Below are positions 2,563-63,106 of a stretch of DNA of 64,000 bases, piece by piece; within the stretch, counting starts at the first letter, position 1; the number at the start of each line of letters is the position of its first letter. Source of the stretch: Apostichopus japonicus (lineage: Eukaryota; Echinodermata; Holothuroidea; Aspidochirotida; Stichopodidae); NCBI RefSeq assembly GCF_037975245.1, contig NC_092579.1:8152001-8216000 (forward strand), written 5' to 3'. The notes below the pieces were generated by a model. That model was given only the letters and a program-made list of their open reading frames with translations. It was not told the DNA's origin and made no database searches. The position numbers and the translations under genes were made by a program.

Positions 2563-2735
2563 CACTCTAAAAACTGAAGTGCTAATTTAGTAGCTCCAAC
2601 ACGGTGCTAGTCATCAATTAGCACTTTAAGAGCTAGTATCTCAACCTTCAAGTGTTAAATAACTTGCACCATACCAAAGTGCTATCGCCGCAGTTGTGAC
2701 GCACTGCACTTGTTAAGTGCTGAAAGTTTCGTATT
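2563..2735. repeat. Left TIR and subterminal AGTGCT array of element 1
   Basis: After the terminal CACTCTAAAAAC, the word AGTGCT or its reverse complement AGCACT recurs about every 20-40 bases (near 2577, 2619, 2680, 2717), together with near-matches such as GGTGCT and AGTGTT. Both orientations occur. Arrays of this kind in DNA transposons usually bind the element's own protein; that role is inferred here. Confidence 0.7.
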
Positions 2736-2742
2736 AACTTTT

Positions 2743-2790
2743 GATTGGCTGAAGGCGGTGACGTCAGTAACATGCAACAACGCTATTGGT
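2743..2790 (+). promoter_or_regulatory. CCAAT/CRE promoter-like region of element 1
   Basis: An inverted CCAAT box (GATTGGCT, 2743-2750), a perfect CRE palindrome TGACGTCA (2759-2766) and a second ATTGG (2784-2788) lie within 50 bases, just inside the left array. A splice-donor-like GACGTAAGT follows at 2851-2859, consistent with a short untranslated first exon. There is no clear TATA box. Confidence 0.45.
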
Positions 2791-3981
2791 TATAACCAAA
2801 TAGTTGCATATCGCATCGCTAGACGTGACAGCTGACGAACGTTCCACCGGCAGACGTAAGTTTCTGAATTGAAATCTGTGAATATTCTCCAGAGTAAGGA
2901 ATATTTGAAAGCTGATATGGCGACCTTTCATGAAATTTGAGTGATCATTCATGTTTTCAATAACCTAGCTTTGCTGATGACGTCGGGAATTTCCTTGAAA
3001 TAATACCTCTGTCGACGTCTTAGTGATGGTAGCCTACCACTTATTTCATAGGTCTATTCACGTATGTAAATGCCCAATGGGCTCTGATATAACATTAGGC
3101 TATGCCAAGTTTATGATTGGGCGTATATAGGCCTAGCCTACCTCCTTATTGTAACATTTATAAGGCCTAACTTTATGGCCGCAAATGGCGATTCGATTGA
3201 GGTGTACTACTGGTACTACAGTCTACTGCGTTTGCACAAGTGGCCATCACAGAGTCTTAACGTATAAGAGAGGCAGGCCCAATGCAATAAGTATTGGTAT
3301 TGGTTTATATGCCAATGCCTAAAGAATATGAGCCGATGGCCGCTAGACGACCACAAGAGAACGTTTTGGACGGCCTGTCACTCCATATTACGCTTTAAAT
3401 TTGTGGTAGCCTAGCCTAGGTCTAACATTATTGTGGTAACAGGCCTAACGTTGTGTTGTTAATGTTACTTTGCAGTGTAAGGTCTGTGTGTGATTGCCGA
3501 CTACAAAATGAAGTAGCCTACAAAGTACAAGTACAAACCATACTTCACAGTCATACATTATTCAGGTTTAAGGAAAAATTAAAGTAAATGTAAACATAAA
3601 ATAATGATCAGAGTAATTGTATACATCCTTTTCTTATTTGACCTTCATAGTGTTTCCCATATTTCATGCATCGCTTAATGTTGTGTACCCTAATGTTTGC
3701 CTTGTTTGCACCTATCAAGGAAGGCCTACTATAAGTATCTTTTTCTTTTGAAATGATGACTCCCAATGTAAATATGCTTCATTTAAGATGTTCTGTCATG
3801 AAAAGTGAAAGACTATAGGTAGGCTTAATTTTCCAATTAATTTGAAACTAATTTCGGTGAAACTTTAAACATGTTTTTTTTTATACTGTTTATAGACTCA
3901 AGCTTTTGCAGAAAAATGAAAGAAACCTGACATGTTTTGGGATTCATTGCATGTTTTCTTGTTCTATACTTTTACTTGTAG

Positions 3982-4138
3982 ATTTTGCAAGACTTTGAGC
4001 AGATGTATGGAGATCAGGTCGCCAATAACTTTTTGATGAAATGGGAGGGTACATTCCCGCTTCATTTGGAGCATGTACTCACCAACTCAGCTCTGCGGGA
4101 CCTTCAGTTTGAATTTGAAGAAACAGAAAAGTCTGAGG
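3982..4138 (+). CDS. SAMD3-like protein, internal exon (element 1)
   Basis: The exon is bounded by an acceptor (TTTTACTTGTAG) and a donor (G|GTATGT), and is open throughout. It encodes about 52 residues beginning ILQDFEQMYGDQVANNFLMK and continuing with a KWEGTF motif, then an acidic tail. The pattern (D-F, then a short helix, then F/L-x-KW-x-T-F) matches the central part of the uncharacterised SAMD3-like proteins abundant in fish and marine invertebrates. This is recognition from memory, not a search. The exon ends in phase 1, which does not join directly to the next exon I can see (phase 0), so at least one exon between them is missing from this annotation. Confidence 0.55.
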
Positions 4139-5425
4139 GTATGTTTCAAAAAAGTGCTAACATTTTGTAGTCATGTGACTCTCATTGTGCAAGTTCAGTC
4201 AAGTTTTCTGTAGTGAATATTTGGTATGTTAGCTCTTTAAAAGACTGCTATAGGTGAAATCATGTACAGAAAAGTGGCAATGCTATTAACAGTTTTTCTG
4301 GTACCCAACTTTCTTTAAACATACATGGAAGAAATGAATGAAAGTGGTTAAGCTAAAACTGAATTACATTCCAATCTAGATTTTGAAGAAGACTTAAGTT
4401 CTGACACCATAGAAGCTGGTGGGAGCTTATGTGATTGGTGGGCATCTACCTGTCTAACGATAGTTCATTAAGTGGTATTATCTCCTGCAGTCTTATGTGA
4501 ATTTTCAAGTACTGAAGCTAACTTGGCTAAACTGATCCATGGGAGGGGACCCATCACGAATGTATCCAAAAATTGAGGTCAAAGATCATTTAAGTGTTAA
4601 TTCAGGCTGCAGCGTGTGAATCAAAAATAGCCAGATCATTATCAGATTGCTCGCAAATTGTTGAAATCAGTGGATTAAAACTTGTATCCAGATTTCAGAT
4701 CAAAGGTTATAACTATTGGGTCTAAATTTGTAGCCAGTTCTTAGGCCCATTCACTAAAATTGATTAAGCTGGCAATCCTGTTCACTTTTGCTTTAATTCC
4801 AGCTGTGGAGTAAGGGTAAACTGAAGGAAATTTGTTTCTTGAGCTACGTACTGTTAAAGCGCTGTGGGTGGAGGGGTGTGTTATTATTCTAGAAACATTC
4901 TAGAACCAATGTTGTAAGTCTGGTGGTGTAGGTTGGACCTGTATAGCCACTTGCTTGGTTCATTCATCGATACAAGTTACTGTACCACTTGATGCCTTAG
5001 TTTCCTCCATCCACAGTGCATTCAATAAGCAAAAGTATTAATTTCCTGGCCTAACCAATTTCAATTATAGAAGAATCCCAGAAATCCTTCAGTCTTCCAC
5101 CATATTTATTTTAGTGACTTTGAAAAGACCTATGACTGTGAAATTGACATAGGCCTATGTAATTGGGTTCAGTGGACATAAAGTATATCAGAATAATGTT
5201 TTTTTTAATTTTTTTGGGCATGCAGTGCCTATGTGTAATTTGTATATTGCAATTTCTGGAGCAAGTAGTAGGAACAAACAATTACTAACTGACACGTCAC
5301 ACTATTTTGTTGACATATACATCTGTTTTGTTGAGATATGTAATCTGTTTTTATGTTTTTCATTATTAAGAAACTTTTCATTTTCTTCTTTAGAACATGC
5401 ATCCAGGTACGGTCTCTTTGCATAG

Positions 5426-5512
5426 GTTCACATATTGCCGTCTTTCAACACAAGGAAAAGTAGAAAATGCAGTCGAGATGACAATGTCCGCTACTTCATC
5501 GCCTGGCAACCA
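5426..5512 (+). CDS. SAMD3-like protein, internal exon (element 1)
   Basis: This small exon of 29 codons reads VHILPSFNTRKSRKC followed by SRDDNVRYFIAWQP. It runs from an acceptor-like CTTTGCATAG to a strong donor (CCA|GTAAGT), and joins the next exon in phase 0 to give a continuous reading through AWQP|IGTNVEEY. In the fish relatives the equivalent stretch is a short L-L-P motif followed by a basic linker and then the G-T-N/S-V motif, which is what is seen here. The 5' boundary is less certain than the 3' boundary. Confidence 0.5.
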
Positions 5513-6023
5513 GTAAGTTGTTTTGTGTGTTGAGTGGGAAAGATCTGCCAAAATTCATGCAGAGTTATCAATCTTTAACCATTTGAGCCTAGGGATATTG
5601 GTACTGACATTCTGTCCTCTAGGCCTCAGCCCCTTGGCTCAATCTGTGCTGGGCGGTCCAGGTAGGTGCTCTTATTAAATGTGTCTTTCCTTCAGGAGAT
5701 AAGAGTCAACCACATAAAACTATCTGATCCAGATGTGGGTTAATGTAGACTATTCTGTACCTGAGCCAGATAATCCTGTATTATATATCAAGTTATATTT
5801 GCATATTTTTGTAGCTGGTTAGTTATTAATATGGATTTTATATTTGGTTAAAATATGGCACAAGCCAGGCAGCAGTTCAGGCAAGATATATAATAGTACG
5901 GTTAGTGATGCAAGCAGGATGTGAAGTAATTGTCAGCTGGACTAGTTGAAGTTTTCAGAGGTTACTTGAGAAATCGGCACTATTTTGGAAATTAATGCAT
6001 GAATTAATTTTCTTTCTTCTTAG

Positions 6024-6356
6024 ATCGGAACAAATGTGGAAGAATATGCAAAGAAAAGCCAACTCAGCAGAAAACAGCCACACCTCTTGGCCATTGGAAG
6101 CAATGTGACTGACTTGCAGCAGTTTTTTGTAGTTCTGGATGGAGTTGCCCTACCTGTTTCCAGGCAAGCATGTGGAATTGTAGCAGCTACAGATATTCTA
6201 ATGAAAGTTCATTATGTTTTTATTGTAGCATATGCGGTGCAGCTCACAGATTTCTACACCTTTATCCAAACTGTGGTGTATGGCATACCTCCATCAGGTC
6301 AAAAGATAAGTAATCGTGTTAAGGAGATAAGGATTGCTTTGCAAAATGTGGAGTAG
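6024..6356 (+). CDS. SAMD3-like protein, C-terminal exon (element 1)
   Basis: After acceptor TTTCTTTCTTCTTAG the exon reads 110 codons to a TAG stop at 6354-6356. It begins IGTNVEEYAKKSQLSRKQPH and contains LLAIGSN, then QQFFVVLDGVALP, then a helix-rich end with KVHYVF and FIQTVVYGIPPSG. This is the characteristic C-terminal domain of the SAMD3-like uncharacterised family: a P-x-LL-x-G motif, a Q-x-F-h-h-h strand, ALP, then K-x-x-YV. A matching but frameshifted exon occurs in element 2 at 15865-16167. No catalytic residue set is evident. The reading frame is intact, so this copy could be functional. Family assignment is from memory of motif order and the molecular function is unknown. Confidence 0.65.
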   Translation: MGTNVEEYAKKSQLSRKQPHLLAIGSNVTDLQQFFVVLDGVALPVSRQACGIVAATDILMKVHYVFIVAYAVQLTDFYTFIQTVVYGIPPSGQKISNRVKEIRIALQNVE

Positions 6357-7624
6357 AGACTGTTCACAGTTTAGTTTAAAAGCATAAAGGAAAGTTTTTT
6401 GCAAGCATGTCTGAAAATTTATTTGTTTTAATAACAAGCATTAATCTCTTTCATGATTTCTCATAACGTTTCTTAAGTAAGTTGCAATGGCCATTTTGTA
6501 GTAGAAAAACATGCCGTATGTTTTATCTTTGGGATCAGTGTTTCAATTCTTGTAATCCTTTAGAGCTTAGTATGTAGCTATTATCTAAAGTGTAGTTGGA
6601 TTTTGACATTAACAGAATTATAAGGCCTACAACACAGGGTAAGCAAATACAAAACTGACCACTACAAAACTTAGACCCACATATATCTCTAAAATCATCT
6701 CCAGATGAACCTGGTTGTGATGGATAAATCAAGTTTTGATCAGTTATTCAGGTTGTACAGTTGATAATTTAAGTTGCTTATAAACATGGGAGGGATACTG
6801 CTTGCACCAGATCTCAGCCACAGCCACTCACATGAATTACTCATTAATAATTAATGACTCACAATATGTCAGGCACTTGCTCGCCCTTGGGAGCGTAGGT
6901 TTACCTAACTTAGTCTTGATTGGGTGTTGTCACTGTTACTTTTATCTTGTTTTAAAACATTCATTCAGACTGTTAGAGGATATTCAGTGTTTCAGTTTAT
7001 TTTTGACCCATTTGGGGATCAAGTTGGTGTTATTTTCATTTGACTTCATGAAAAGAGTGGAGTGAATAGGTTTGAAGATGTTGTTCAAAATAAGGGACCA
7101 TGGAAACTCAACCTCATTGGGTGGTAAAAACTGGTTTGTTTATTTATTTAATTTTTGTCCAATCTGAGATCTTATCCAGTTGGAATCTGGATTTTACTGG
7201 ATTTTTGGGGTGCATAGTCCCATCTACTGTCAATATCACTCAGTACTAATACAGTAAATTAATATCATGTTTTAACTTAGTAACATCCATGGCTAAATGT
7301 AAACATAAAGTTAGGCTAGAACACTATGCATGGATATACTCTAGCACTTCTGGTCAACAGCCTTAAATATTTATAGTAAACAAAGGGCTTAGCTGACATA
7401 CTTAAGCTAATCTGTCTACACTATATGGTTTAAGTCTAACTCATGATTTTTTTATTTCTCAAGTACAGGAAGCAATAAAAGAAAGAAAGAAAAGAAAAAA
7501 TGTGTTCCCTTTTATTTCAGTCAGGTGATGATGTGTTTTGACCTACCCTTTACATTCCATATTTTGCAAGTGATACAGATTCTGAGTCTACAGTAAGTGG
7601 TGCTCTGTACACCCTAATACTGAC

Positions 7625-7843
7625 CTAAGGACTTGCACTTACAGGTGCCTACTTTGCTCTTTCCAGTGCTGGTGGTAGCACTTAAAGTGCGGGACTGTTG
7701 CAGCACTTTTCAGGTGCTGGTATAGTTAGCACCATTGAGAGTGTTATTTATAGCACTTAGGGTGCTGTCCCTCTCAGGGCTCTTGGAAAGTGCTGTAAAA
7801 TAGCACTCTATGTGCTGTTTTCAGCACTTTGGTTTTTAGAGTG
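7625..7843. repeat. Right TIR and subterminal AGTGCT array of element 1
   Basis: This is the denser of the two arrays: CAGTGCTG, TAGCACTT, CAGCACTT, AGGTGCTG, TAGCACC, TAGCACTT, AAGTGCTG, TAGCACTC and CAGCACTT recur in mixed orientation over some 200 bases, closing with GGTTTTTAGAGTG|TA. The word matches the last six bases of the terminal inverted repeat. Confidence 0.7.
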
Positions 7844-7845
7844 TA

Positions 7846-10440
7846 CGTACATGTCTGTGTATACACACTACGAACAATGCTATGCGGCGTCAAATCTTGC
7901 CGCCGAGAAAAGTTAAGTACCCGCATGGGTACTACGATGTTTTGCAGTAGACACGCCCCTTTATGATAATTACACCGACCTCTACTGGGGGGGGGGGGGG
8001 AATGACGCGGTCAGGGCAATGGGAATGCCATGGGTCCATTACGTATACAATACTAACAAACAGCCAACCTTGTGATACATGTAGCCATAGCCTATGGCTA
8101 CACTAAGGTGGCGGCAATCTTCACTATAGTATGAGACAACAAGCATGCACTTTTCTCAATACAAAGAACCATACATAATATACTTACGCCATTCACAGAA
8201 GTAAACAAATTTTCAGTGCTCTTTGAGAACGATGTTTAGATGTTTTGAAAACGTGCTTAATTTGAATGTTTCATTCTTTAAATATAAAGATATCACAACA
8301 GTAATCAACTTGGTTTTATCTTTCATTCGTCTTCGAAAGACGGAACTTTATTTGTTTACTGATAATTACAAATAGCCTATGAATGAATATATATACCTTT
8401 CTTTCTTAATAAATATACAGTGTCTTCGATGCTAAGAAATTGTGTCTACATCGTAATCGGAAAGAAGTTTAAGATACTTGCATAAAAATATTCAAGTTCA
8501 ACATAGTTATACTTGTTTAGTTGTCTTATTTACATTTTTGTCAGATTTGAACTCTGTTAACCTTAATGTCCTTTAATCTCCACAGAAAACAATAGGGTTT
8601 TTCTTACTTTACAAGATAGATACGCATATCACGTATGAAGTTCATCCAAGTTTTGCTTTTTGAATTATGTCATCTGTAGTCCTAAAAGAACCTTTGACCT
8701 CAGCAGGAAACAATAGAGTTGTTGTATTCAACAAGACGGAACCACATACCCGAGTACGGAAGTAAATTGAAGCTTTGATTTCGGAATTAACCGGTTTACA
8801 AGGTTTACAGACTTTGACCTCTGTTGACCTCAAATGACATGTGCTATTACGTAAACAACGGTGACAAACTGTAGCGAAATGTGTGGGAGGCGGGGAAGAT
8901 AAGGACACATATATACTATGTTTGCCACCTTATCATTTAAAAGGGATAAAGCTTAAACCCAGATAAACCAACCACTGCATGCAGTTCTTATAGAAAATGC
9001 TATTAACCAACCGGATGCGACCACTTGCGGTATCCATACTTTTGCTAAGTAAAACAATATATTATTTCCACTCATAAAAAAAAAAGTCGTGTGAATGCTA
9101 GTATTGTTTCTCTAGCTATTCATGATTTCAAGATATTCACCTTTTAAAGTATGCTTTATCTCTGGAAAGCTCCTTTAAGGCTAAACTCATGGTGAGGTCA
9201 GCTCCTCAATGTTAATGTTATAATCAATTGTTTAATAAATTCTAATAACGTATAACAAAACCCTGTTCAGTTAACTTCATATAAACAATTGGACATCCTT
9301 GAATGAATCTATATTTGAATATTTGTGTAACACATTGTAAAGATGTCATTTGAGGTTATATATAAGTCTTCGTGTTCCTTTTCTCATTGAGTTTTGTGTT
9401 GCATCTGAGGAACTGACCTAATGTTCTGTGTGTATTAGACTATATAGTCCAGTCATTTTAATTGATGAAACCTCACCTGCTTAAAGGCTCATTTCTCAAA
9501 ACTTAAATAGTAGTTTAGAAACACAACCTGGACCTGATAACAGTGGGGGTTTTCAGCGGTCTTCAACAAATCGGAATCAATTTTGTGCCAAAAGGTCATC
9601 CTTGAACGGATTGCAGACTTTATCTGCCCCAAACATGTTGTTCATCAACACTAATTTCAGCTCAAGTATAATATTTCATTTCATCTCGGAAACACCGGGG
9701 GCTATACCTCATGCATACCTTATATACCTAAAATGAAATATGAACAAGTCAAAACTGAGACGAGTGTATAAAACGCCGATTTAAGCATGTCGAAAGAAAT
9801 GTATAGATATATCGAGGTCGATATTCCTATATCAAACAAGCTAATAATATATGAGCAGATCTAAAATAGTTTCAACATGATGTAGGTACCAGCAAATACA
9901 CCAGCATGTCGATTTGAATCTGTGGCTGAAAACTTCAAACGCACAATATGTTTCTCGGTATGTCGTGCTTACAGCTCCAGATATTTTGTACATTATATGG
10001 TTACTTGTTTATTAAAATCCGCATTAATACAATCATATATCGACCTCGATAAATTTATATTTCTTCAATGTCCTTATATCAGTTTTATTTTTATATGCTA
10101 ATATCCATGTGGACGTTGTCACCTCAATTGTTCTCTATATTTGAATCTTACGGCGCTCCATGGTCATATAAACCTGAATAAAATATGTTTACATGATTGC
10201 CATATGTTAAATGTTATTCGTTTGCTTCAGTCTACTTTACTTTTTCGACCACATACACTATAGGGCACCATTACAAACTAGCCGTGTCGTTGATGCTAAG
10301 CCTCTTAAATAAAGACTGATATCATGTGCAGGTCATGACGTCATATGATTACCCAGACGGAGTAGTAATCCTTCCTGTAAGCAAAACACTGAAAAGAAGC
10401 AGTGTTTACCAGAGTTTGGCTCTGTATACATGTCCTTTAT
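7846..10440. other. Intergenic, no supported gene
   Basis: The stretch is AT-rich with a G-run at about 7987-8000 and no coding exon I can support. The 88-residue minus-strand frame near 8642-8908 has no recognisable motif or splice context. It separates element 1 from the 3' end of the transporter gene. Confidence 0.5.
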
Positions 10441-10604
10441 TCAGACCGATGTTGCCTGACACGATTGGTCGATTGCAGCAGCTTCATTATTACGAAACGA
10501 CCTTAGAACTTCAACGCACAGCAATAAAATCGCTCCTATAAGGCACCAACCTGCATTGAGAACGAAGGCGTACGTGTATGATCCAGTGACGTCATAGATA
10601 GCGC
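10441..10604 (-). CDS. MCT-like transporter exon 6 (C-terminus, stop)
   Basis: It encodes GAIYDVTGSYTYAFVLNAGW, TM12 (LIGAILLLCVEVL) and a short cytoplasmic tail ending ATSV. GAIYD-x-T-x-SY is the standard SLC16 sequence entering TM12. The acceptor is TTTTTTTCACAG. The stop TGA (plus 10441-10443) overlaps an AATAAA signal (plus 10437-10442), so the 3' untranslated region could be only a few tens of bases. Confidence 0.85.
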
Positions 10605-13600
10605 CTGTGAAAAAAAATTGATAACAACACTTTTAAAAGTTGTGGGTATGCAAGCATACTGTAGGGCTAGAGAAGATATTATCAAACATTTTTTTGTCTG
10701 TAAGATACAATATTCATAGCCTATCTTCATCAGTTAAAGCGCTTTTTCAGCTGATTTTTTAAGCTAACTTTTCGATTCTATCCGATGTTTAATTCCCAAA
10801 TGTCGTTCTTTAAGAAATAGTCATCTTTCACGATTATTGAAGAAGAAAAAAATCAATAAAAAACAATGTTGAAATTTTGCGATTTAAGTTCAGCATGAAA
10901 AAAAAATACATATCAATTTCGCTTAGCAAATGAGCTTCATACACTAGCATAAATACATTCTATATGCTGAGTAAATTTGGTAAAATTGCTGGTTAGTATA
11001 CTCATCTCATTCTCTAAAGTTAAAAGTTAGATAAGATAATTTTTGTTGCCTGGTAACAAACAGAAGGAGGTATATATGATTGTGTGGTTTAATTACAATT
11101 GCTGGAAAGCGAAGATAATGCATGTACCCAGCACAATTCCGCTAGGATAAGACCATAATTTATATAAACAAGTCTGGTGTATACTCATCAGAGCGTTTTA
11201 CTCTCAATATAAAGTGCAGTAACATTTTTACCTACAAGTAAAAACAAAAACAAAGTCATATGAATCTGTATCTCTATAAATTGAACAGTAAAACAGGAAA
11301 TAGATGGATTGATCATTCATAATATTTATTTGCTCTTTTAGTTATTCATGAAATTTCGGATTTTGTTCTATTTTTTTTTATGCTAAAAATGCTTCTAAAT
11401 TTGGCAAGCAACTTAATACAAAAGTGAAAAAAAATGGATAACTTTTCCTACAAAACAATAAAACTGCTAACTTCTGAGTAATCAGGCAATTAAACAGTTC
11501 TAAAGAAAAAACTGGTAAAATACAAAGCGTTTTGTCATCATTTCGTTGAATTTTAGCATCAGTTATTACTACGTCAGCAGAAAGTTCATACTTTAGGACG
11601 AGGGCGTCTTCGGGTTTCCAAAAACGTTATGCTCAATTTATTCGTCTCCACAATTGCGAACATTTATTGGTTCTCAATTTTTGCTAACATTCCCATCCCT
11701 CCTGCCATCACGGAGAATGTACAAAATCAGTGATTGCGTAGTCTGTATATAGAAAGGTATGGCATCCCACAAGGGCCATAACGGTTGAGTTTTCGACAAC
11801 AACCACGTACCATAAAGGGGATCATTCTAACTATATACGCAAATTTAAGGATTTCCGTAGAACAGCAAACCCTGTAAGAATTTTCAAGACTAGACGTATC
11901 GGCTGCTCTACTCACTTGAATACCCTATATTATTGTGTAAATAGAAATAAAATTCACATGTGAATTATTCACCTGCAGGTAAGGTACCAAACGTAAACCC
12001 AAATCCGTATGCAATCATAGTGAGGGTTATAGCCTTGTCATTGACGTGGTCAGGAAGAATTTGAGTTGATACAGAGTACGGCAGAACGTTGTAAATACCT
12101 CTTCCAGTTCCAATCACTGTTTTCAATGTTACAAATAAAATCAATCAATCAAGGTTCTCTAGCAAAATAAGAAAGAATTCATTTTACAAGAAAAGAAAAA
12201 ATCCCGCATACACACACACGCATAGCATTTTTTTTTTAAATTTTGGAACATTTGTCATTTTTGGAAAGTACGAAACTTACGACTTATTGTCAATAAACAT
12301 ATCCATTGAAGATGATATAATGGGACAAAGAATATGTCAACAGGGATTAGTTGTTTACAATGCCTGGTACTAAACCAATATGAACCGATGAAGCCGTGAG
12401 TTCGCAGCGAATACATCAGCTTGCCTGCTCGTAATACAACGCTTGACGCAACCAGTAGGATTAACGTAAGTCGGTGTTAATTTAAGGTCATCCCACCGAC
12501 CCACCCACATATCGGCATTCTCGTATAGCAAATATGTGACTTCCTAGGGATAGGGAGGGCCGATGATGTCATACGCCATCTACAACAGCAATTAGTCACT
12601 TGCGAAAGATTTCATTTTGAATCTTCTGTTACACTCTCCCCTACTATAAATAAAGACATGATCTTTACTGACTGGAGTATCTTGAAGGTTGATTAATTTG
12701 ATTGCCAGATGTATCCATGAAAGGAAAGGGATTGCCGTGAATATGCGAGGTTGTTAACATCAATCAAAAATCACTTCACATTATGTTCAACGTAAAGGAC
12801 AATCAGCTTTCAAAATTGGACAGAATTTTCTTCTTTTACAGAATACTTTCCGCTCACGTTTCATAAATTTATCTATAATTTCTAAGTCAAGAGATTCACG
12901 CACACTTTAGTTAGAGTTAATTAGAGTTAATGGATTATGATCAGGCAGTGGGTCAGCAAGGGCGCAATGCTAAGAACACTATAATAATAGAAGATTGGGT
13001 TATAGGCGAGGAAATGCAAAATTTAGGAGAGCACGGGTAAGGGAGGAGTGAAGAACATCCTTTTACAGAAATCCGAATACAATTTCACACAGGAATGCAA
13101 TGTAACTGTAAACACTGAACTAAACCATTAAACATGGTTTCTAGTATTTAGATGTAAGCGAGGTACATACTTGACTATTTCTGTCATATCTCATTGAATT
13201 ATTATTATTATTATTTTTTTTTTTTTTTTGGGGGGGGGGGGGCTATTTGGTTCGAATGTGGAAAGGGGCAAGGGTGATGTTTACTGTGCTGGGTATGAGG
13301 GTTAGGATGGTGACCGATTCGAAGAGCAATATAGGCCCACAGGCTATACCCACATCGCAGTTCTGGATGGCTTCGTGTACATATGTTTATACCCATACAT
13401 GCATTCACCTAATAGCTCAGGGGTATTACGAAGAGGTAAAGCAAAAATATGTTTGAAGAGCAATTTACTCACAAATGCTGCAGAGAAGTAAAACTTTGTA
13501 GACTGGCACGAATGTGATGAGCAATGTTGTAACGAAAAATAACAAATTGTGGCAGATGAGAAGAGTACAGTGTGGAACACTCTCGGCTATGATACCAATA

Positions 13601-16600
13601 CCGATTTTCCCGATCAATTCGAAGATAGGTTGCACAGTCAGTAAATTATTCAAACAGGCTTCAGTAACATGGATGCTATCGAAGTAGCTAACCTGAATAG
13701 TAAACAAAAAAATGAAATATGAAGAAAAAGTGTTATATTTGAGTTAACAATATATGACGACGTATGTATATAGATACAGAGCAAGGTAAATATAAGGCAC
13801 TACGTGGGTTGCACTCACATTTGTTATTAAAATTATATTTTTTAAACCATTGTGTGTGGAAGACCTTGGCAAATATCTATACACTCAAAAAAATGAAGTG
13901 TTAAATTTGAATCGTAAAGTGTTGAATTTAACACCCCACCCTGTTTGGATTAGGGACAACACCCACCGGGTTAAATTAACACTTCAGAAGTGTAACATAA
14001 TATAACACTTTGCGAGTGTTGCCTTAACAACACCCATACAAGTGTCAAAATAACACTTCCTGGTGTTGAAGGTACAGTACAGGGAGTAAAATTAACACAA
14101 TAAAGTGTTCATTTGTTAAAACTTCTGGGTGTCAACATGACACTTCAGGAAGTAAAATTAACACCATAAAGTGTTCATTTGTTAGCACTTCTGGGTGTCA
14201 AAATTGCACTTCAGGGAGTATAATTAACACTCTAGTGCACATTTTTTGGCCTTCTGGGTGTCAAAGTTCTGCTTCAGTGAGTAGAATTACCACCATATAG
14301 TATTCATTTGTCATCTGTGTCAAGATGATACTTAATGGACTCTCAACACACAATAGTGCTCTCTCGTTTATACTTCTGGATGTATATTTAACTGCTGGTT
14401 TGTAAAGTTTTACATGTTTATTATGTAACGCAAATACAATACTGTTATGTAAAATTTTGCCAGAAAAGTTTACATCGCACCCTTTTAGTAAATATTTTAT
14501 ACAGGTTTTAGGTTAATTATTACCTAGTAATTAGGTAAACAATATGGATGCATGTTTGAATCGCTCACAGCAGAAAGTTACATTTAAGAGAGAGCAAAAA
14601 GCAATGACAACACAAACAATTCAGAATGTGGGATTTTCAGCAATTAAACACCCTACTACCTTCCTATTCCAGAGGTCCATTTATTATAAAAGTATTGTCT
14701 TGTGGAATTAAATCAACTTAAAAGTGCCAACATTTTCAAATGCTAGTGCAGTTACTTGGTCTTTATTTGTCGAGTAGAGGATCGATGTTAGTTTAGTCCC
14801 GACAAAGCTGCAAAGTTTCATGCGGAAGCGTGGAATTCCAAAGATAAGAATAGAGAATATTTATAATGTTCTGTGACTTTTATTCCTTCACTACTCCTTC
14901 ACTCAATCTCTCAGGTCTTCATCAGTTTGCAGTCACTTCACTCAGCCACACCCTTCATTTTCCCAACAGCCAGCACAACAACACACAAGGCCAATATTCC
15001 AAGTCAAAGTCAAAGTGAACAGTGAACTCCCTTCCTCTCACACAATATCATAAGTAGTCTGTACATAGCATACACTGTAGAAACACACACACACACACAC
15101 ATCTCTAACCCCTCTTGACCCCCATCTCCCCTTATCTCTCCTTCATCCTGCCTGACCTACATAAGCACCAACTTTCGGACTTTCACTGGCTCACGCCCAA
15201 GAATTCCATCTCCATAGCAATAATATTTACAAAGTATAGTTAAAGAGGTATATTATAGAAATAGAAAGTTGCGATATATAGATTGTTCATGGTTATAGAA
15301 ATAGATAGTTGAGATATGTAGATTGTTCATGGTTATATATATAGTCTTTAAGTTTGTTCTCGACATTATTTTTTTGCACATGCCTTTTGGTTTCTAGATT
15401 AAAGACAAAGAAACAACTCTTCCCAAAGTCAATTTCAAATAAGCAACAACTTTAGAAAAATTCTGATCCATGGGATGAGAAAACATGGAGTGCTGTGTAT
15501 GATGACTGCTACACTACAGTGACTATGTCTTTGTTGTTGGCAAATGCCTTTTGGTATTCCAGATTAAACGCAAGAAACAACTCTTCCCAAAGTCAATTTC
15601 AAATAAGCAACAACTTTAGATATATGCTGATCCGTGGGATGAGAAAACGTGGAGTACTGTCTATGATGACTGCTACACTGCAGTTACTTTGTCTTTGTTG
15701 TTGGCTCGTACCTTTGGTATTCCAAATTAAACAAAAAGAAAAAACTCTTCCCAAAGACAATTCCAAATAAGCATCAACTTTACATACATTCTGATCCGTG
15801 AGATGAGGAAACATGGAATTCTGTCTATGACAACTGCTAAACTGCAGTAACGTTGTTTTTTTTTGTCGGCACGGTGAGCATAAAAATCTCGAATCTGGTT
15901 GCGTTTCACACCACCAGGCAACTTGTAGACAACTTTTTGGAAAAATTCCCAGGCACCGAGACTTGCAATTTGGTATAATTCAGATTTAACACGTAGAATA
16001 ATTTGAAGCAAACATCAATGGCTTCATAAATGTCCTCTGGGGTAGGGCATGTCTCTGGATGATCACAAATGACTGCTTGGGGTGTATTTTGCTTCCTCCA
16101 AGAAGTAACACATATTGCTGAGGTCTTTCTGAAATCTTTTGCAAATAGAATTCCAAGTTGATGCTTCCTAAGTAACAACAAACAAAAGAAAAGAAAAGAA
16201 AATTCCCATCATAATGAAATTGTGTTAAAACCTTGGAGCATAAGCAGTTTTTTACATGTACCCCTCACAAAACATGAACATTCCTAAAGAAAATGCACAC
16301 AATTTAATCAGTTGTGATTCTAACTTCTTCAAGTACGTTTGAATCTAGAAAGCCAGATGGCCTATAGTGATTACTTGTCAAAACAGGAACTTGCATTAAA
16401 CTTTCATCAGACAAGGTAGGCAACTTTTATAACCAATGCATCATGTTAACAATGCTTAAAACAATGCTCACTCCCACTGTATGCAATTGTGTAGATTGAT
16501 AATGAATTATAACAGCTAGATCACTTCCATAAGATATCTAAATTATAGTTGGGCCTAGGCTAGGTCTAAAAGTATCACCAATCCACATCAGCTTCGGCCT

Positions 16601-19600
16601 ACTTGCTACAACTTACAAGCTAAAATGGCAATTAGTGGTAATTATATATTGCATTACATGAATATATGTTTATCCCTTATTGAACATAGTACCAGCGTAA
16701 CTATAGGCCCATGCCTGATGCTATTTAAAATGCATTGTCTTGAAATAGCCTAAGTATACCCTACTACTACTAGTACTAGGCCTAGTAGTAGTACTACTTA
16801 AAAAAGTGACTCGCAGGGTATACGAAGTTACGGTTAACGCACAAAAAGGAATAGAATGCACTAGATTACAATAAAGGCCTAGACCAAAGTCCTCCGTCCG
16901 TCCGAAGGCAATTCCGTTTAATGTTTACTTGTATGTAGGCTACACTGATTCGTTGACAATTATGAGTTGACTATGACAAACAGCAGCTAGCCTATTATAT
17001 TAACTTATAGTATGACTTTAACGTTAGGTCTACGTAACGCAAGCGATTCAAATGCATTCGTCTACCCAGCTTAGTCGTGGGTCTCTAAGCATATCTCGTA
17101 ATTGTCACGTACACTTACATAATATCAAAACATACCTTCGAATTTTTCAATCAATTCTTCCAGGCCCCAGTCTCCTATAACGTCATTTTCATGCCATTGT
17201 AGCTCGTTATCGCACACTGAGTACGTAACGTTTTGTGGCTTGAACGTATATATGGCTGTGGTTACTATAGTACATTTAGTAACGATAAATGTCGACAAAC
17301 TGGTACAGGTATTGCTAGGTACGGTAAATGGGTGTTCACGGTACTAAGAATCCAGCTGACGGGAGGTTTGACCAATCAGAATGCTCGAACTGAAAGTACA
17401 CTTCTGCAGGTGTTAAAAAATCCACGCTACATAAATTATGTAACCCTACTCAGGGTCAGAGTAACCCTTCAGGTGTAGGGTGAACGGTTACACCTGGAAA
17501 GTGTTAAAATTCAACACTCCATTTTTTTGCGTGTAGGAGATGGTAATTTTTTCTCGATCGAGACGAAAGTAACCATTAAAAGAGAAGGCGATTCCAACCG
17601 TCATTTCACCCTCAGTGATAACAATGACTGCGACGAAGAACTTCTATGAGAAGCTGGCGAAACCAGGTTTGCTTCATTTGGGGGAAAATCATGACTTAGA
17701 AAAGTTGGTGGCTGCCAATTTATCAAGTTGTCATATTGTTGTTAGGATGTGAAACCTTTTATTTCCCTTTTTGTTTTGTTGTTTTCTTCATAGTTTTTAA
17801 GGTGAACGTATTCTGTGTTGTTAATGAAAACAATGTTAAACACGACGTCATGTTGAAAACATCGAAAGTATCATGTGTACAGTACCGATATCTATCAAAG
17901 AAAATGAACAACTTCCAATGTGTAATACGAGAAGGCTCGATGACGTCATACTTAGACTTGCTCAAGTCATATATCTGTGCGAGACAGTGCTTTACAATAG
18001 ACACATTTCTTAACATCACATCGAATAATACTAATGTTTTGGTAAGAAGTAAAAGCCATCGTATATGCCACTGTGCACGACAGATACATTTGGAAAGGCT
18101 GTTGTATTTTATTTGTTAATCATGTGGAAGCAAAACCTGAACACGAAATTAGCGGTGTCGATGCCCAAACATATATATATATATATAGCGTGGTTGGCCA
18201 TACACGTTAATATTCATGAACTTGTCCACACCAATATAAGGAGGATTATCTATTGACTATTGCGGCAACATATGAAAGAAGGTACCAGGAATCAGTTGTC
18301 ATGTTGACAAAAGTCTAATTAGTGACATCGTATAAAAGCAGATAAATGCATGAAGATTAATGGGGTCAAATTCTATGATCTCATAAGCATGTATCTATCT
18401 ATATACTTACACTGTATTATGCAAGTATATTTATAAAGCTAATTAGACAAACTATTTCAGAGATACCTGATGAAGACTTTTATTTTCACTGATTTATATT
18501 CATGGCATATTTGATCCATTTAAAAGCCATTTCTTGCAATTTGATGAATATTAATGGCATAAAGTTGGAGACTTCCTGAAAATGTGCTTATTATATGCCA
18601 ACATCGCTATACTAATATGAACCAAATTTTACGTTAAGTCTCCCCACTCATAAATATTCTTGAGATGAGAAACAAGAACCATAGGGCGTCTATCTACCAA
18701 GTATCGCGTTGATTCAACTTGTGTGTTTATTGAGATATCGTGTTTGCAAGCTGTTTTTGACAATTTCTCATGAAGTTCCACCCACAAATGATTATTAATG
18801 AGGTCAAAAAATTGTTGTTACAAAAGAACAAGTACATCACCATATCAGGTTAAAACTAAATCGGACATACAGTTGCAGAGATATTGACATGTTAAGTTTA
18901 TGATAAGCCCCATACCCACTCATTAATATTCACGAGATGGGAACCCAATACAACAGGGCTCATCCGAACATCCTGGGACATCTTCCTACCAATTATGACA
19001 TTGATTCAACTTGTGGTTGTTGATATATCGTGTTTACATGGTAGCCGTCACCCCCAAACCCACGCACACGCACAGCCACCCGCGCGCACGCACACACATC
19101 CGCGCGCACGCAAACACACGCAAAGGAGAGACGTCGAAGTTGGATCCTATATTTTATCCAATCATGGACGATTTAATCTGCCAGACTTGCTGAAGATTGT
19201 ACCATTATCACGCGTAATTATCCTGATAAAAAGATATTCGTTCTTACCAGTATCATCTGTGCCTATTAGTCTATTCATAATTTTGAATTCTGCTGGTATA
19301 TGGTCTTTACTATATACCTTTTGCATACACTCTCGATAAACAGTAAGACTTTCCAAACCTAGGATCTTACGTAAAATAAAAACTATTTTGCACGCATCAA
19401 TAAATTCATGCATAGGCTACATAAATTAATCCAACATGTTTTTCCTTCAAAAGAAGCAAAGTATAAACCCGATACAGTCCAATCGGAGTGATCAGTAGCT
19501 TTTGCGATCATTTTTGACGTAAACGTGGAGAATATCAACGGCTTCATCATAGACTATAATATCACAAAATAATATGAGATCTATATAACGGTACATTAAA

Positions 19601-22600
19601 GTCAACTTTTTTTTTTTTTATGCACGGTAACCTTGTTATGTCGAATTGCAAGGGACACACACTCACACACAAATTATTCGTATGTACAGTATTATTAACG
19701 TCAAAATCGCCCTCTGCTATCGACGAAAAGCTTCAAATTTAGTATTACTTTTAGGCATGAAATTGGACAAAGAGAAAGACATGTACGAAGATTATATGAA
19801 AAGCATTTCATCGTAATCTTGTTTTTTTTTGTTCTGATTTTAGTTTTTACCGGACGGACCATTTGACATTATATCCTCGTTATTCATGCATATTATAATA
19901 TATTTGCAAGAGATTTCACTTACAATATTTATCCAGTAAACTGACCATGTCATCGTTGGCAAGAAGATGGCAAAGAAAAACAACCAAGTCATCGGCGCTT
20001 TTAACAAAGTTGTCCAGGTTTCGGTTTTAAGTCCATCGTCTGCTTCATGAGTTTGACTTTCTTCATTTTGATGTTTATCAACTGTCGCATGAGAGCTGTT
20101 ACTTTCAGTATTATTCGGCGGTGTCTTTTTGTCGCTTCTAAGTTTGTTCAATATGGACGTTCGTCGACGATGTGGTGGCTCCGAGATGAGGAACGATGCG
20201 GGAACGGCTACGAGAGCGGTGAAAAATGACGTCAGCCTCAGAACAAAACGCCAGCCAATCACAGGAAGGAGTTTTTCATACGCCACAACGAGACCGATAG
20301 TAGCTGGAGAAAACAACATAAATTTGGAAATATAAAAAACAAAAAAACTGTACATGAACATTAAAAAGATTTATTCATATTTTAGCACTACGAAACATAT
20401 TTATCCTATAAATGACGTTTACGAAAAAATTGTTGATTGCAGGAACATTATCTTTTGCAGAGAGTTCAACTCTTTGCTACTTACTCAGGCCTGGTGAAGA
20501 GGGAGTGTCTGGGAGGTTATAGCCTCGGGTCAAGAATTGGGTAGGGTAAAAAATGAAAAAAATGGGGAAAAGAAATAATGAATTCCCAGTTTCATTAATT
20601 ACCTGATAAATAAAGACTGCAAAAAATGGAGCCTGGGGACATAACTGTCCTCCAGTATACAAGATATATACCTTTGATTATAACTCTGTTACAGACCATT
20701 TCTAAAGAGTATAGAGACATTCATGTTGGCTAGATCGGGACTCGAACTAGAGACTTTTATATATTACTGCTGGCTGGGTCTCTGGTTCGAATCCCATATT
20801 ATTATTAATACCACATAGAAAATATGATTTGTTTATAAATTGACCAGTTAGTCTTCGGTTGTTGGTTGAACTAATAAAGAAGGTAAACCTACCCAATGAA
20901 CTGCCACTGAAAGCGATTCCTGATGCTAATATTCGATGCCGATGCGGCAAATGTTCGAAGATGACGCACATAACAGAGTGTATTACAAAGTTGGAGGCTG
21001 TCCCATAACCGATTCCGTACAAAACGAGCAGCCCGGGAAACGAGTCCATTAATGAAGACAGAAAAATAGTCAAAGCAGTTAAGCTTGATCCGATTACAGT
21101 CAGTGATCGATAACTGATGTATTTTTCCAATCTTTCCGATATCGGACTTCCAAAGAAACACATCCCCCACGTCATTGAGGCTATCCATCCTGATTGTGTT
21201 GTAAGTATGAAAAATGGAAATGCAGATACAAATTGGCGATCGATTAATGAATACAGAGCAATGTCATTTCTAGATATCAGGCTACAAATAGGGGTGTGTC
21301 TAAAACGAAGACCTCTAAAACGAAGATAGAAGACTGGAAAAATCGAAAACAAATAGTCTTCATTTTTCGATCTTCGTTTTCGAGATTCGCAGTATAGGCC
21401 AATCTCGAAGAGGAAGACCGACACTATATTTCTAACAAAATTCATTTTGTATTTGAAACTATTGGTGAAATTCTTCTTAGATTTTCATTTTACAACAAAG
21501 AGGAGACAGACAATATGAAGAAAAATAATTCCCCAAATACTGACAAATTAAGTCAATGGTGGCCGCCATTTTTTAAGCCGAAATAGAAAACAGTTGTACG
21601 GATGCCCATAAGCTTAAATGACTTGCTCTTTACCACGAACTAATGGTTTCATAATCACCAATCCCCGTCCCCATGGCTGACACAGCCATTAAACCTTGTA
21701 TGATCTTCTAGAAGAGTTTCTTGACGATTGTATTTGTTTGAAATGATTATTAATGAAGGTCTTCGTTTTTCGAGATTGGAATATACAGCGAATCTCGAAA
21801 ACGAAGATTGAAAAACGAGGACTTCTTTGTTTTCGATTTTCCAGTCTTCTATCTTCGGTCTTCTTTTTAGATGTCTTTGTTTTAGAGATTTCACCAATCT
21901 CCTGTCTTCGATCTTCGTTTTAGAGGTCTTCGTTTTAGACACACCCCTACAAATAGCGATGGTAGCCTAACTATATGCAATACGTCCAAGGGCGGCGTAA
22001 GCACTTTTAATCTGGGGGGGCACCAACAACGAAGGGCACTTTGCAGAAATTCGATAAGTCTGATGAGCCTGATATTTGGTACCCTTTATAACTCTTATTG
22101 TATTATCTCATTTGCGTATACACATCACTCCATCAACGCCACCCCCCCCCCCCCTCAAGGAAACAATGCATACTAGCACTGCAGTATCTATTGTGCAAAA
22201 AAAAAGACAAAATGAGGTGAAATCATTATTAAGTCCAAGTCCCTGCACACGCGATCGATACATGCATGAAAGCAAATGAAATATGTCAAAATACTGAAAG
22301 AAAAGTAATTTTCTATGTGTTTTTCAATGGTTAAACTGATATTATTATGATCATTATTATTGAAACGACTTTCCCAATAATTATAACCAATTTGGAAGGG
22401 TTATAACACGGCAAATGATTGTATGTTATTGGCATGCGATGTAATAACCAACGCATACCTATATGATATGCACATTGACATGTTGAACGCGCGCGCGTAG
22501 CGCGCGAAAAATTTTGTTAATATTTTTCGGGCAAGTCGTTACAGCCCCCCCCCCCCCCCAAAATCAAATTGGGCTCCTACGCCTGTGGTAGTAAACATTT

Positions 22601-53666: not shown

Positions 53667-54187
53667 GTTAGTTTATTTCCATTGTCTACAAAAAAAGAAA
53701 GAAAGATTTCTCAGATATACAGAAAAGTCAATAAAGGTTTTTTCTTCTTTTCGTACACGCAATTAAAGTATGTACACGTAATGAACACTAGAAAAAAATA
53801 TGTTTTTAATATTACACGACAGCAACCATGAGAGGAAAAAAAAACAACCCGGAAGAAAATTCCAAGAATTTCATGTTAAATATGCCTATTTATTTTTTAT
53901 ATATTTAAATCTCGTATCAGCTAATCTGAACATTGATAATTTTCGAGTAATATATGAATGAAAACCCCTGACTTACAATGTAAATGTACAAATATTTAGG
54001 CTTTAAACTTTGAGGTTATGGATGGAGTACTCAACACGTGACTTTAAATATAATATCAATCATAAAAAATGTTCTAGTATTACACGGATAGGTAAATTTT
54101 CCGGTATTTAAATTTCTTGTTTTTTTCTCACATTTTTCCATCGGTCTCTTTGAAATGACTTTCCTTTATTTTTATTTTCTTCCAAAG

Positions 54188-54933
54188 GAATGCCTGGTAA
54201 ATATTTTCTCTTCCTCTGTATGCTATGGCCGTTCTTAAACTCTTGTTACCGGGCCATCATTTATTTCTACCTAAGCGAGTGTGACTTTGACAGTCACGTG
54301 GTGACGACTGCCCTCTTTGGAATTATTATGATGGAGACTTGGGGACTGTTCGTGTACCTCATCTACTTCATCCGGGTATCATTCCAGAGGCAGTTTTCTC
54401 TCATCCTAGTGTACCTCCGGGATTTCGAGGGTCACATTGATCGTTGCCGAGGGGCGATTCTATGTGCATTTGCAGATTATAACCTATTTAAAACTTTCTG
54501 TAACGGATATTTCTTGCTAACCTTCCCCGTGGTCGTCATTGGAGTGACGTCACACATCACATGGCAGTACTTACTTTATCAAGTTTGTGCGACGGACTCG
54601 CCGATCATGAAAACTCAAAATTTTCTCCGATGGTTAGGACTGTCCGAGATATCGATGGCGCTCTTCTTATATATCTTCGCAAGTGGTGGCATGAGTGTCA
54701 ACTACCTTGGCCTACAGTTACATTCGAACGTTTTGAAGTTAAAATCAGCAGCGCATGCTCTCTTTTGGGATGAAATTGTGCAAGTCGTCGATACGACGAA
54801 CAGAGGGTCTCAATTATTGTACCTAAGCGTATTTTTCTCAACTGTTGGTATCTTTATGTCGCTTCAATTTAATAATCAAGATGTCACGTATATGAATGCG
54901 CGGTATAACACAACAAATATGACGATTTGCTGA
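54188..54933 (+). CDS. Seven-helix receptor-like protein, C-terminal exon (TM3-7)
   Basis: After acceptor TTTTCTTCCAAAG it reads GMPGKYFLFLCMLWPFLNSC and goes on to a TGA at 54931-54933, 248 codons in all. Five hydrophobic helices are evident, the last being LLYLSVFFSTVGIFMSLQF, close to the end of the protein. T-V-G-I-F-M-S-L-Q-F resembles the TY(h)5QF motif of insect gustatory receptors and their echinoderm and cnidarian relatives (GRL proteins). The reduced N-linked tail (NNTT-like NTTNMT) follows. With the upstream exon there are seven helices, as in that family, whose members are membrane proteins of uncertain role outside arthropods. Assignment is by architecture and one degenerate motif, so moderate confidence only. 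Confidence 0.6.
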
Positions 54934-62243: not shown

Positions 62244-62797
62244 TTAATCCGATTCCGTCGTAATTGTAAAGGAATTGTTTTGGTTTATCTGGGACGGCAA
62301 ATCGTTTCTGATGTTTAAACCGAATGGTGCCGTGGTCTTTAGGTTTAGTTCCCAGAAATTTTCTTTCGCTCTCCTAGATTTATCTGTCCAAGAATCGTTC
62401 TGGTCAATGGCAATAACACGCAAATTCTCAATTGAATGATTTTGGAGATTGAAGTGATTTGCAACAGGTTGGTAGATCTTTTTTGTTTTGATCGCCGATC
62501 TATGTTGTGTCATTCTCATTCTAAGAGTGTTTTTTGACTCTCCAATGTATTGTAAGTAACAAATATTGCAGTAGATGAGGTTAATGACATTTTTGGGAAG
62601 GCAGTTAATTTTGTGCCGAATTTGGAACGTGCGTTTGGTTTGGTTGCTCTGAAAGGCCCCGGTCGAATCGACAAGTAAGCACGTTTTGCAATTTTGTGTA
62701 CAGGGCGATGATCCTGTAGTTTCTGTTATGCTTTCCCCTAATGGGGTGTCATCCCGAAAGGATGCCCGAACTAAGATATCCCGTAGGTTGCTGGGTC

Positions 62798-62798
<1 letters not shown>
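62244..62798 (-). pseudogene. Penelope-like protein, C-terminal GIY-YIG endonuclease fragment
   Basis: An open frame of 185 codons begins RPSNLRDILVRASFRDDTPL, the region after the reverse transcriptase in these elements. A Cys pair (PCTQNCKTC) follows, and then the GIY-YIG-type domain: LIYCNICYLQYIGES, LRMRMTQHRSAI, and the C-terminal HFNLQNHSIENL and REN/KENFWELNLKTTAPFGLN, ending at TAA (62244-62246). The usual G-I-Y is C-N-I-C-Y..YIG here. The domain nicks target DNA during insertion. The frame is intact but lacks all upstream domains. It has no start codon of its own and is a retroelement relic. Confidence 0.82.

Positions 62799-62801
<3 letters not shown>

Positions 62802-62840
<39 letters not shown>
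62802..62840. repeat. (TA)n, right of the retroelement
   Basis: The TA run continues directly into TTCCATATATTAAGGATGCA, which corresponds to 26190 onward in copy 1. Confidence 0.95.
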
Positions 62841-62842
<2 letters not shown>

Positions 62843-63106
62843 CATATATTAAGGATGCATGTTTGTATGCATTTGTATGTGTGTGGGTGGGTGCCGCTGT
62901 TTAAACAGCTGCGTGAGCTGTGTTTAAGATAAAACTGTAAGTTACTGGTGCCCGTGTCGGGACAGGGACGCGATGTGATTGTGTATGTGATATGCAGGTA
63001 AGGGTAGGGGTGGGTGAGAGGGGAAGGGAAGGGACGCCTGTGAAGTGGGTTAGACCATAATTTAAGATTTGTGTTCAATGTTTTTTGTGTGTCGCTTTGT
63101 TAGACA

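Follow-up and report, generated by a model that had tools for sequence, protein, structure and literature searches.

In a 64-kb window of the genome of the sea cucumber Apostichopus japonicus, two elements with inverted ends are probably diverged, internally deleted and non-autonomous animal CACTA-type elements, each of which has kept a damaged copy of its own second gene, encoding a SAMD3-like protein. We refer to them as E1 (2563-7843) and E2 (13882-17533); the window is the whole stretch of DNA that was analysed, and all coordinates are positions within it. This assignment draws on the ends of the two elements, on the gene remnants inside them, and on relatives in other animals in which the SAMD3-like family is coupled to a transposase with a CACTA-clade signature and a predicted RAG1-like fold. 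An original prediction had already proposed that E1 and E2 share a gene family and a code of repeated words in their ends, and had raised the possibility that they represent an undescribed type of DNA transposon.

Inverted ends, flanks and repeated words

E1 is bounded by a left terminal inverted repeat that runs from CACTC to AAGTGCT (2563-2583, plus strand) and a right terminal inverted repeat (7823-7843, minus strand). The left terminal inverted repeat of E2 runs from CACTC to AAGTGTTAA (13882-13911, plus strand); like those of E1, it was delimited by inverted-repeat matching, and its right counterpart (17504-17533, minus strand) has a GTG end with one mismatch to CACTC. With the flanking TA counted in, the arms of E1 (2561-2583/7823-7845) pair at 21 of 23 positions and those of E2 (13880-13911/17504-17535) at 28 of 32, bearing out the inverted ends originally proposed. 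All four ends have 5'-CA..TG-3' inverted termini, and a pattern search with TACAC[TG]C[ATG]AAAA gave four matches in 64 kb, which are these ends and nothing else. Among 400,000 random arm pairs used as a control, 4 had 22-23 matches and a few had 18-20, scores that may arise where chance places overlap real repeats.

A TA lies directly outside each end of E1 (2561-2562 and 7844-7845) and of E2 (13880-13881 and 17534-17535); these flanks, like the subterminal regions and tandem repeats described below, carry no strand. The flanks match for TA only, with no agreeing 5-bp (base-pair) flanks. Transib/RAGL transposons have a 5-bp duplication, CACTA/CMC transposons one of 2 to 5 bp, and the target-site duplication of En/Spm, the CACTA element of maize, is 3 bp. 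Of the TA duplications claimed at the outset, the TA on both sides of both elements stands, whereas the duplication itself is likely, no empty site for either element having been found within the window.

Short words cluster at the ends, as had been predicted. AAGTGCT, the most enriched 7-mer of the E1 ends, occurs 9 times in their 401 bp (four copies in the left subterminal region, 2563-2763, and five in the right, 7644-7843, on either strand) versus 7 times in 55,067 background bases. The E2 ends (701 bp) contain AAGTGTT 8 times, versus 10 times in the background, and the enrichment of this word ranks second behind the overlapping GTGTTAA. The corresponding Poisson p values (1e-17 and 2e-12, respectively) overstate the significance, since the end windows were chosen after inspection and some of the E2 copies lie inside a 66-bp tandem repeat. 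The E2 copies are lopsided, with seven in the left subterminal region (13882-14382), which includes four units of the 66-bp repeat (14051-14311), and a single one at the right end. Each word also occurs once in the ends of the other element. AAGTGCT is part of the terminal repeat of E1 and AAGTGTT of that of E2, so the proposal that the array word equals the inner part of its own terminal repeat holds for these cores but not for the full GAAGTGCT and GAAGTGTTAA, which are not the arrayed words; GAAGTGCT was found once in the E1 ends.

The promoter-like regions of the original prediction could be recognised by eye upstream of both genes. In E1, this stretch (2744-2789, plus strand) holds inverted CCAAT boxes at 2744-2748 and 2785-2789 and TGACGTCA at 2759-2766; in E2, an inverted CCAAT box lies at 17372-17376 (minus strand).

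Remnants of one SAMD3-like gene family

The SAMD3-like gene of E1 is represented by three exons on the plus strand. Exon A (3982-4138, from about profile position 266 onward) and exon B (5394-5512) match the family profile weakly (E 4.1 and 0.74, respectively) and their splice sites were placed by eye, whereas the last exon (6024-6356), which carries the C-terminal domain and the stop codon, was found by profile search (E 3.9e-21) and by tblastn. Compared with P0105, an annotated Apostichopus japonicus protein, 26 of 30 residues match in exon A, 36 of 38 in exon B and 34 of 35 in the last exon. Exon B contains an in-frame stop at 5423-5425 that P0105 lacks. On the family profile, which is about 460 positions long, E1 thus covers approximately 266-458, and no SAM domain was seen in it.

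The E2 remnant lies on the minus strand. Its C-terminal coding part (15883-16165) is split over three frames (16165-16022, 16037-15969 and 15975-15883), the pieces of which were recovered by profile search with E values of 3.3e-10, 1e-06 and 4e-04; a 164-bp tandem repeat in three units (15408-15899) overlaps the 3' end of the remnant. A candidate SAM-domain first exon, placed by eye at about 17136-17201 and followed by a GTATGT donor, has an E value of 0.13, which ranks second among 2,436 open reading frames of the window and is not significant alone. Across the C-terminal domain, the last exon of E1 and the joined E2 pieces have 28 of 89 aligned residues in common, in agreement with the related but diverged domain first described. 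The multi-exon gene of the original prediction was overstated: SAMD3-like exons are present, but exon B of E1 bears a stop and the C-terminal part of E2 is split between frames. Both gene copies are damaged fragments of one SAMD3-like family.

The SAMD3-like family is coupled to a transposase

Protein searches by sequence were made in three steps: the first returned 3 proteins; an alignment-based second one, 130 (120 listed); and the third, with the transposase part of a joined model as the query, 263 (120 listed). Among the matches listed, the SAMD3-like family is found mainly in teleosts, and also in Apostichopus, Asterias, Patiria, Lytechinus, Lingula and spiders; Pfam SAM_1 matches 6 of 42 rows at E <= 0.1. 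In the fish proteins P0106, P0109, P0120 and P0003, the N-terminal part is another protein, with motifs that point to a transposase. The family of this partner transposase comprises, among the named matches listed, proteins of fish, Lingula, Lineus, echinoderms and spiders, including P0164 from the sea cucumber Apostichopus, in which, however, no element that joins this transposase to SAMD3-like genes was seen.

The SAMD3-like profile has 127 matches among the 240 proteins listed and the transposase profile 128; 15 of the proteins match both. The 15 joined models come from seven fish (Denticeps, Xyrauchen, Labeo, Leuciscus chuanchicus, Merluccius polli, Anabarilius and Siganus) and two species of the spider Trichonephila. 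The transposase part leads in 13 of them, and P0022 and P0174 have SAM-region sequence ahead of the transposase. By eye, P0229 opens with a SAM-like stretch and the spider model P0223 has one after the transposase. The order of the SAM exon relative to the transposase thus differs among these models. The joined SAM and transposase model P0174 (Labeo rohita) bears the database name 'ATP synthase subunit b', which is apparently wrong. In Astyanax, isoform X1 of LOC111195806 is, by database name, a transposase and isoform X2 a SAMD3-like protein, and in Doryrhamphus the two proteins are separate loci (LOC131127529 and LOC131127533). The coupling is scattered across fish and spiders, and gains, losses and artefacts of annotation may each have contributed to this pattern. 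The joined models and the Astyanax isoforms support the original view of the SAMD3-like protein as one of the element's own.

We scored the transposase signature on 48 alignment rows picked from the 120 listed transposases. The DDE, C(2)C, H(3)H signature is nearly invariant: one D is present in 47 rows with a gap in the remaining one, and the other D, the E, the C/C pair and the H/H pair, the two pairs lying between the second D and the E, are present in 48 of 48. A predicted model of the partner transposase matches RAG1 (Foldseek E 2.5e-11), as expected of a RAG1/Transib-type fold, and the N terminus carries C2H2 fingers. Pfam Transposase_21 matches P0120 at E 0.06 and 16 of the 48 rows at E <= 0.1, and P0130 and P0163 have PF02992 in the database's own annotation. 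By motif and predicted fold, the partner transposase belongs to the CACTA/Mirage/Chapaev/Transib clade. Given this signature and the RAG1-like model, the suggestion that E1 and E2 represent an undescribed type of transposon is not supported. The hidden RNase H fold that the original prediction proposed to look for is thus found in the partner transposase, but not in the SAMD3-like protein, the predicted model of which had no significant structural match, PDB included, a result that does not exclude a hidden fold.

Proposed working and alternative explanations

In maize, En/Spm encodes the transposase TNPD and TNPA, a protein that binds the subterminal regions (PMC2613891; here and below, statements about cited papers refer to the accessible portions of their text). 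By analogy, we give an even chance to the idea that the SAMD3-like protein acts in a TNPA-like manner, binding the subterminal words. Fuller relatives of E1 and E2 encode a DDE transposase of predicted RAG1 fold and a SAMD3-like protein, adjacent or, by database name, in the same gene, the latter consisting of an N-terminal SAM domain and a conserved body. The SAMD3-like protein would bind the short words inside each element end, and its SAM domain, a type of domain that fits oligomerisation, would bring the ends together. The transposase would cut at CAC..GTG and insert at TA, giving rise to the presumed TA duplication, and E1 and E2 would be mobile only when these proteins are supplied in trans. 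The further idea that protein and word change together would have E1 and E2, two sequences, as its basis.

Several observations weigh against this reading. No trace of a transposase was found in the 64-kb window, in line with the original prediction: the best profile match has an E value of 4.3, and the best tblastn matches reach E 0.11, for the SAMD3-like part of P0205, and E 0.16, for a transposase part. Without a transposase in the window, E1 and E2 are at most non-autonomous derivatives, and because it is missing within both, their assignment rests on their ends and their relatives. Their relation to the coupled elements of fish and spiders is drawn from the proteins. No protein reached the Transposase_21 cut-off (best 27.2 bits versus 28.6), and the search for transposases was seeded with the joined model P0120, so the sample is biased. 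On a tree of 36 transposase rows, the joined label needs 5 changes, forced by strongly supported branches, and its clustering is unclear, 42 of 500 shuffles being equally low; 11 rows that form a separate, weakly rooted group are without any joined model. Some of the joined models may be annotation errors. As for the reading of the words, the SAMD3-like model yielded no DNA-binding fold, and the C2H2 fingers of the transposase itself could be the reader instead.

The lack of a recognised DNA-binding fold also speaks for an element protein with another role, such as controlling chromatin, counteracting silencing or assisting the transposase, as does the fact that SAM domains frequently bind proteins. 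We consider such a role possible, if somewhat doubtful, since the strong clustering of the end words calls for a reader and the second protein of plant CACTA elements is one (PMC2613891). It is unlikely that unrelated TA-inserting elements on two occasions picked up parts of a SAMD3-like gene of the host. The fragmentary gene copies, the absence of a transposase trace inside either element and the annotation of SAMD3-like proteins in fish as ordinary genes would all fit such captures, but two diverged elements with 28 of 89 residues in common have like ends and one gene family, and 15 of the 240 proteins listed combine this family with a transposase. A reading of the ends as those of a plain MITE next to an unrelated gene was likewise set aside. 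Less probable again is that the SAMD3-like genes belong to the host and that nested insertions or bad gene prediction produced the joined models, which do come from automatic annotation and the label of which does not clearly cluster on the tree; against this, identical gene partners recur in seven fish and two spider species, with the transposase leading in 13 of 15, and a single Astyanax gene has both as isoforms. A new superfamily with the SAMD3-like protein acting as transposase is highly improbable: the gene for this protein is the sole one left in E1 and E2, but a separate partner has the intact DDE signature and the RAG1 fold, and the SAMD3-like model has no significant PDB match.

Seen as CACTA-type derivatives, E1 and E2 lead us to a broader and more tentative proposal, namely an old two-protein, RAG1-fold CACTA-type lineage in spiders, a brachiopod, echinoderms and fish, in which the second protein would be a conserved SAM-domain, TNPA-like reader of element-specific end words; the SAMD3-like genes of fish would be its copies, and vertebrate SAMD3 maybe a tamed descendant. 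If this is true, a conserved SAM-domain family paired with a RAG1-fold transposase would be an animal counterpart of TNPA, directly testable, and since related elements offer proteins matched to their own end words, the co-change of protein and site would become measurable. Many fish genes annotated as SAMD3-like or uncharacterized would then be transposon genes, and the RAG1 fold would gain another two-protein relative.

Other features of the window

Two pairs of long direct copies of about 96% identity (24807-26199/60536-61926 and 26172-27367/62822-64000) probably represent either a single repeated element or a duplication. Reading frames picked by eye from the list of open reading frames resemble a transporter (19840-21484, minus strand), a multi-pass membrane protein or receptor (54154-54933, plus strand) and a GIY-YIG/Penelope protein (62244-62900, minus strand).

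Comparison with known systems

Published CACTA elements of animals already include ones with 2-bp duplications, in some cases together with CAC..GTG ends (PMC1636069, PMC4298943, PMC6004678), which further argues against an undescribed type of transposon. In the open literature of PubMed Central, among the papers listed, we found no SAM-domain or SAMD3-like protein linked to CACTA elements; Repbase and subscription papers lay outside this scope, and a prior description is possible there. With En/Spm, E1 and E2 share subterminal repeats and, presumably, the character of deletion derivatives that depend on proteins supplied in trans (PMC2613891). En/Spm also produces its transposase and second protein from one transcription unit, the transposase reading frame lying inside intron 1 of tnpA, a likeness that may be present here, by database name, in the Astyanax isoforms (PMC2613891). 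The lineage differs from En/Spm in the TA flanks of E1 and E2, in a second protein of the SAM-domain, SAMD3-like type, and in a transposase that stays under the Transposase_21 cut-off.

Among animal elements, SmTRC1 of Schistosoma (TRC) is likewise of CACTA type; 7 of its 14 copies show a 2-bp repeat, and alternative splicing yields short second products (PMC1636069). For these second proteins, it was reported that no relatives could be detected among other elements of animals or fungi, unlike the conserved family found here, and the TRC ends start with CCC, compared with CAC in E1 and E2 (PMC1636069). For ENS1_Cis of Ciona and the CMC-NA miniature inverted-repeat transposable elements, the accessible description includes no SAMD3-like gene, in contrast to E1 and E2 (PMC6004678). 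The fungal EnSpm-like ESTA elements have a DDE, C(2)C, H(3-4)H signature, a transposase resembling RAG1 and TA duplications (PMC12730594). ESTA differs in being fungal and in its extra gene, which encodes a TET/JBP dioxygenase; compared by description, it has the clade signature, the likeness to RAG1 and the TA in common with the lineage of E1 and E2 (PMC12730594).

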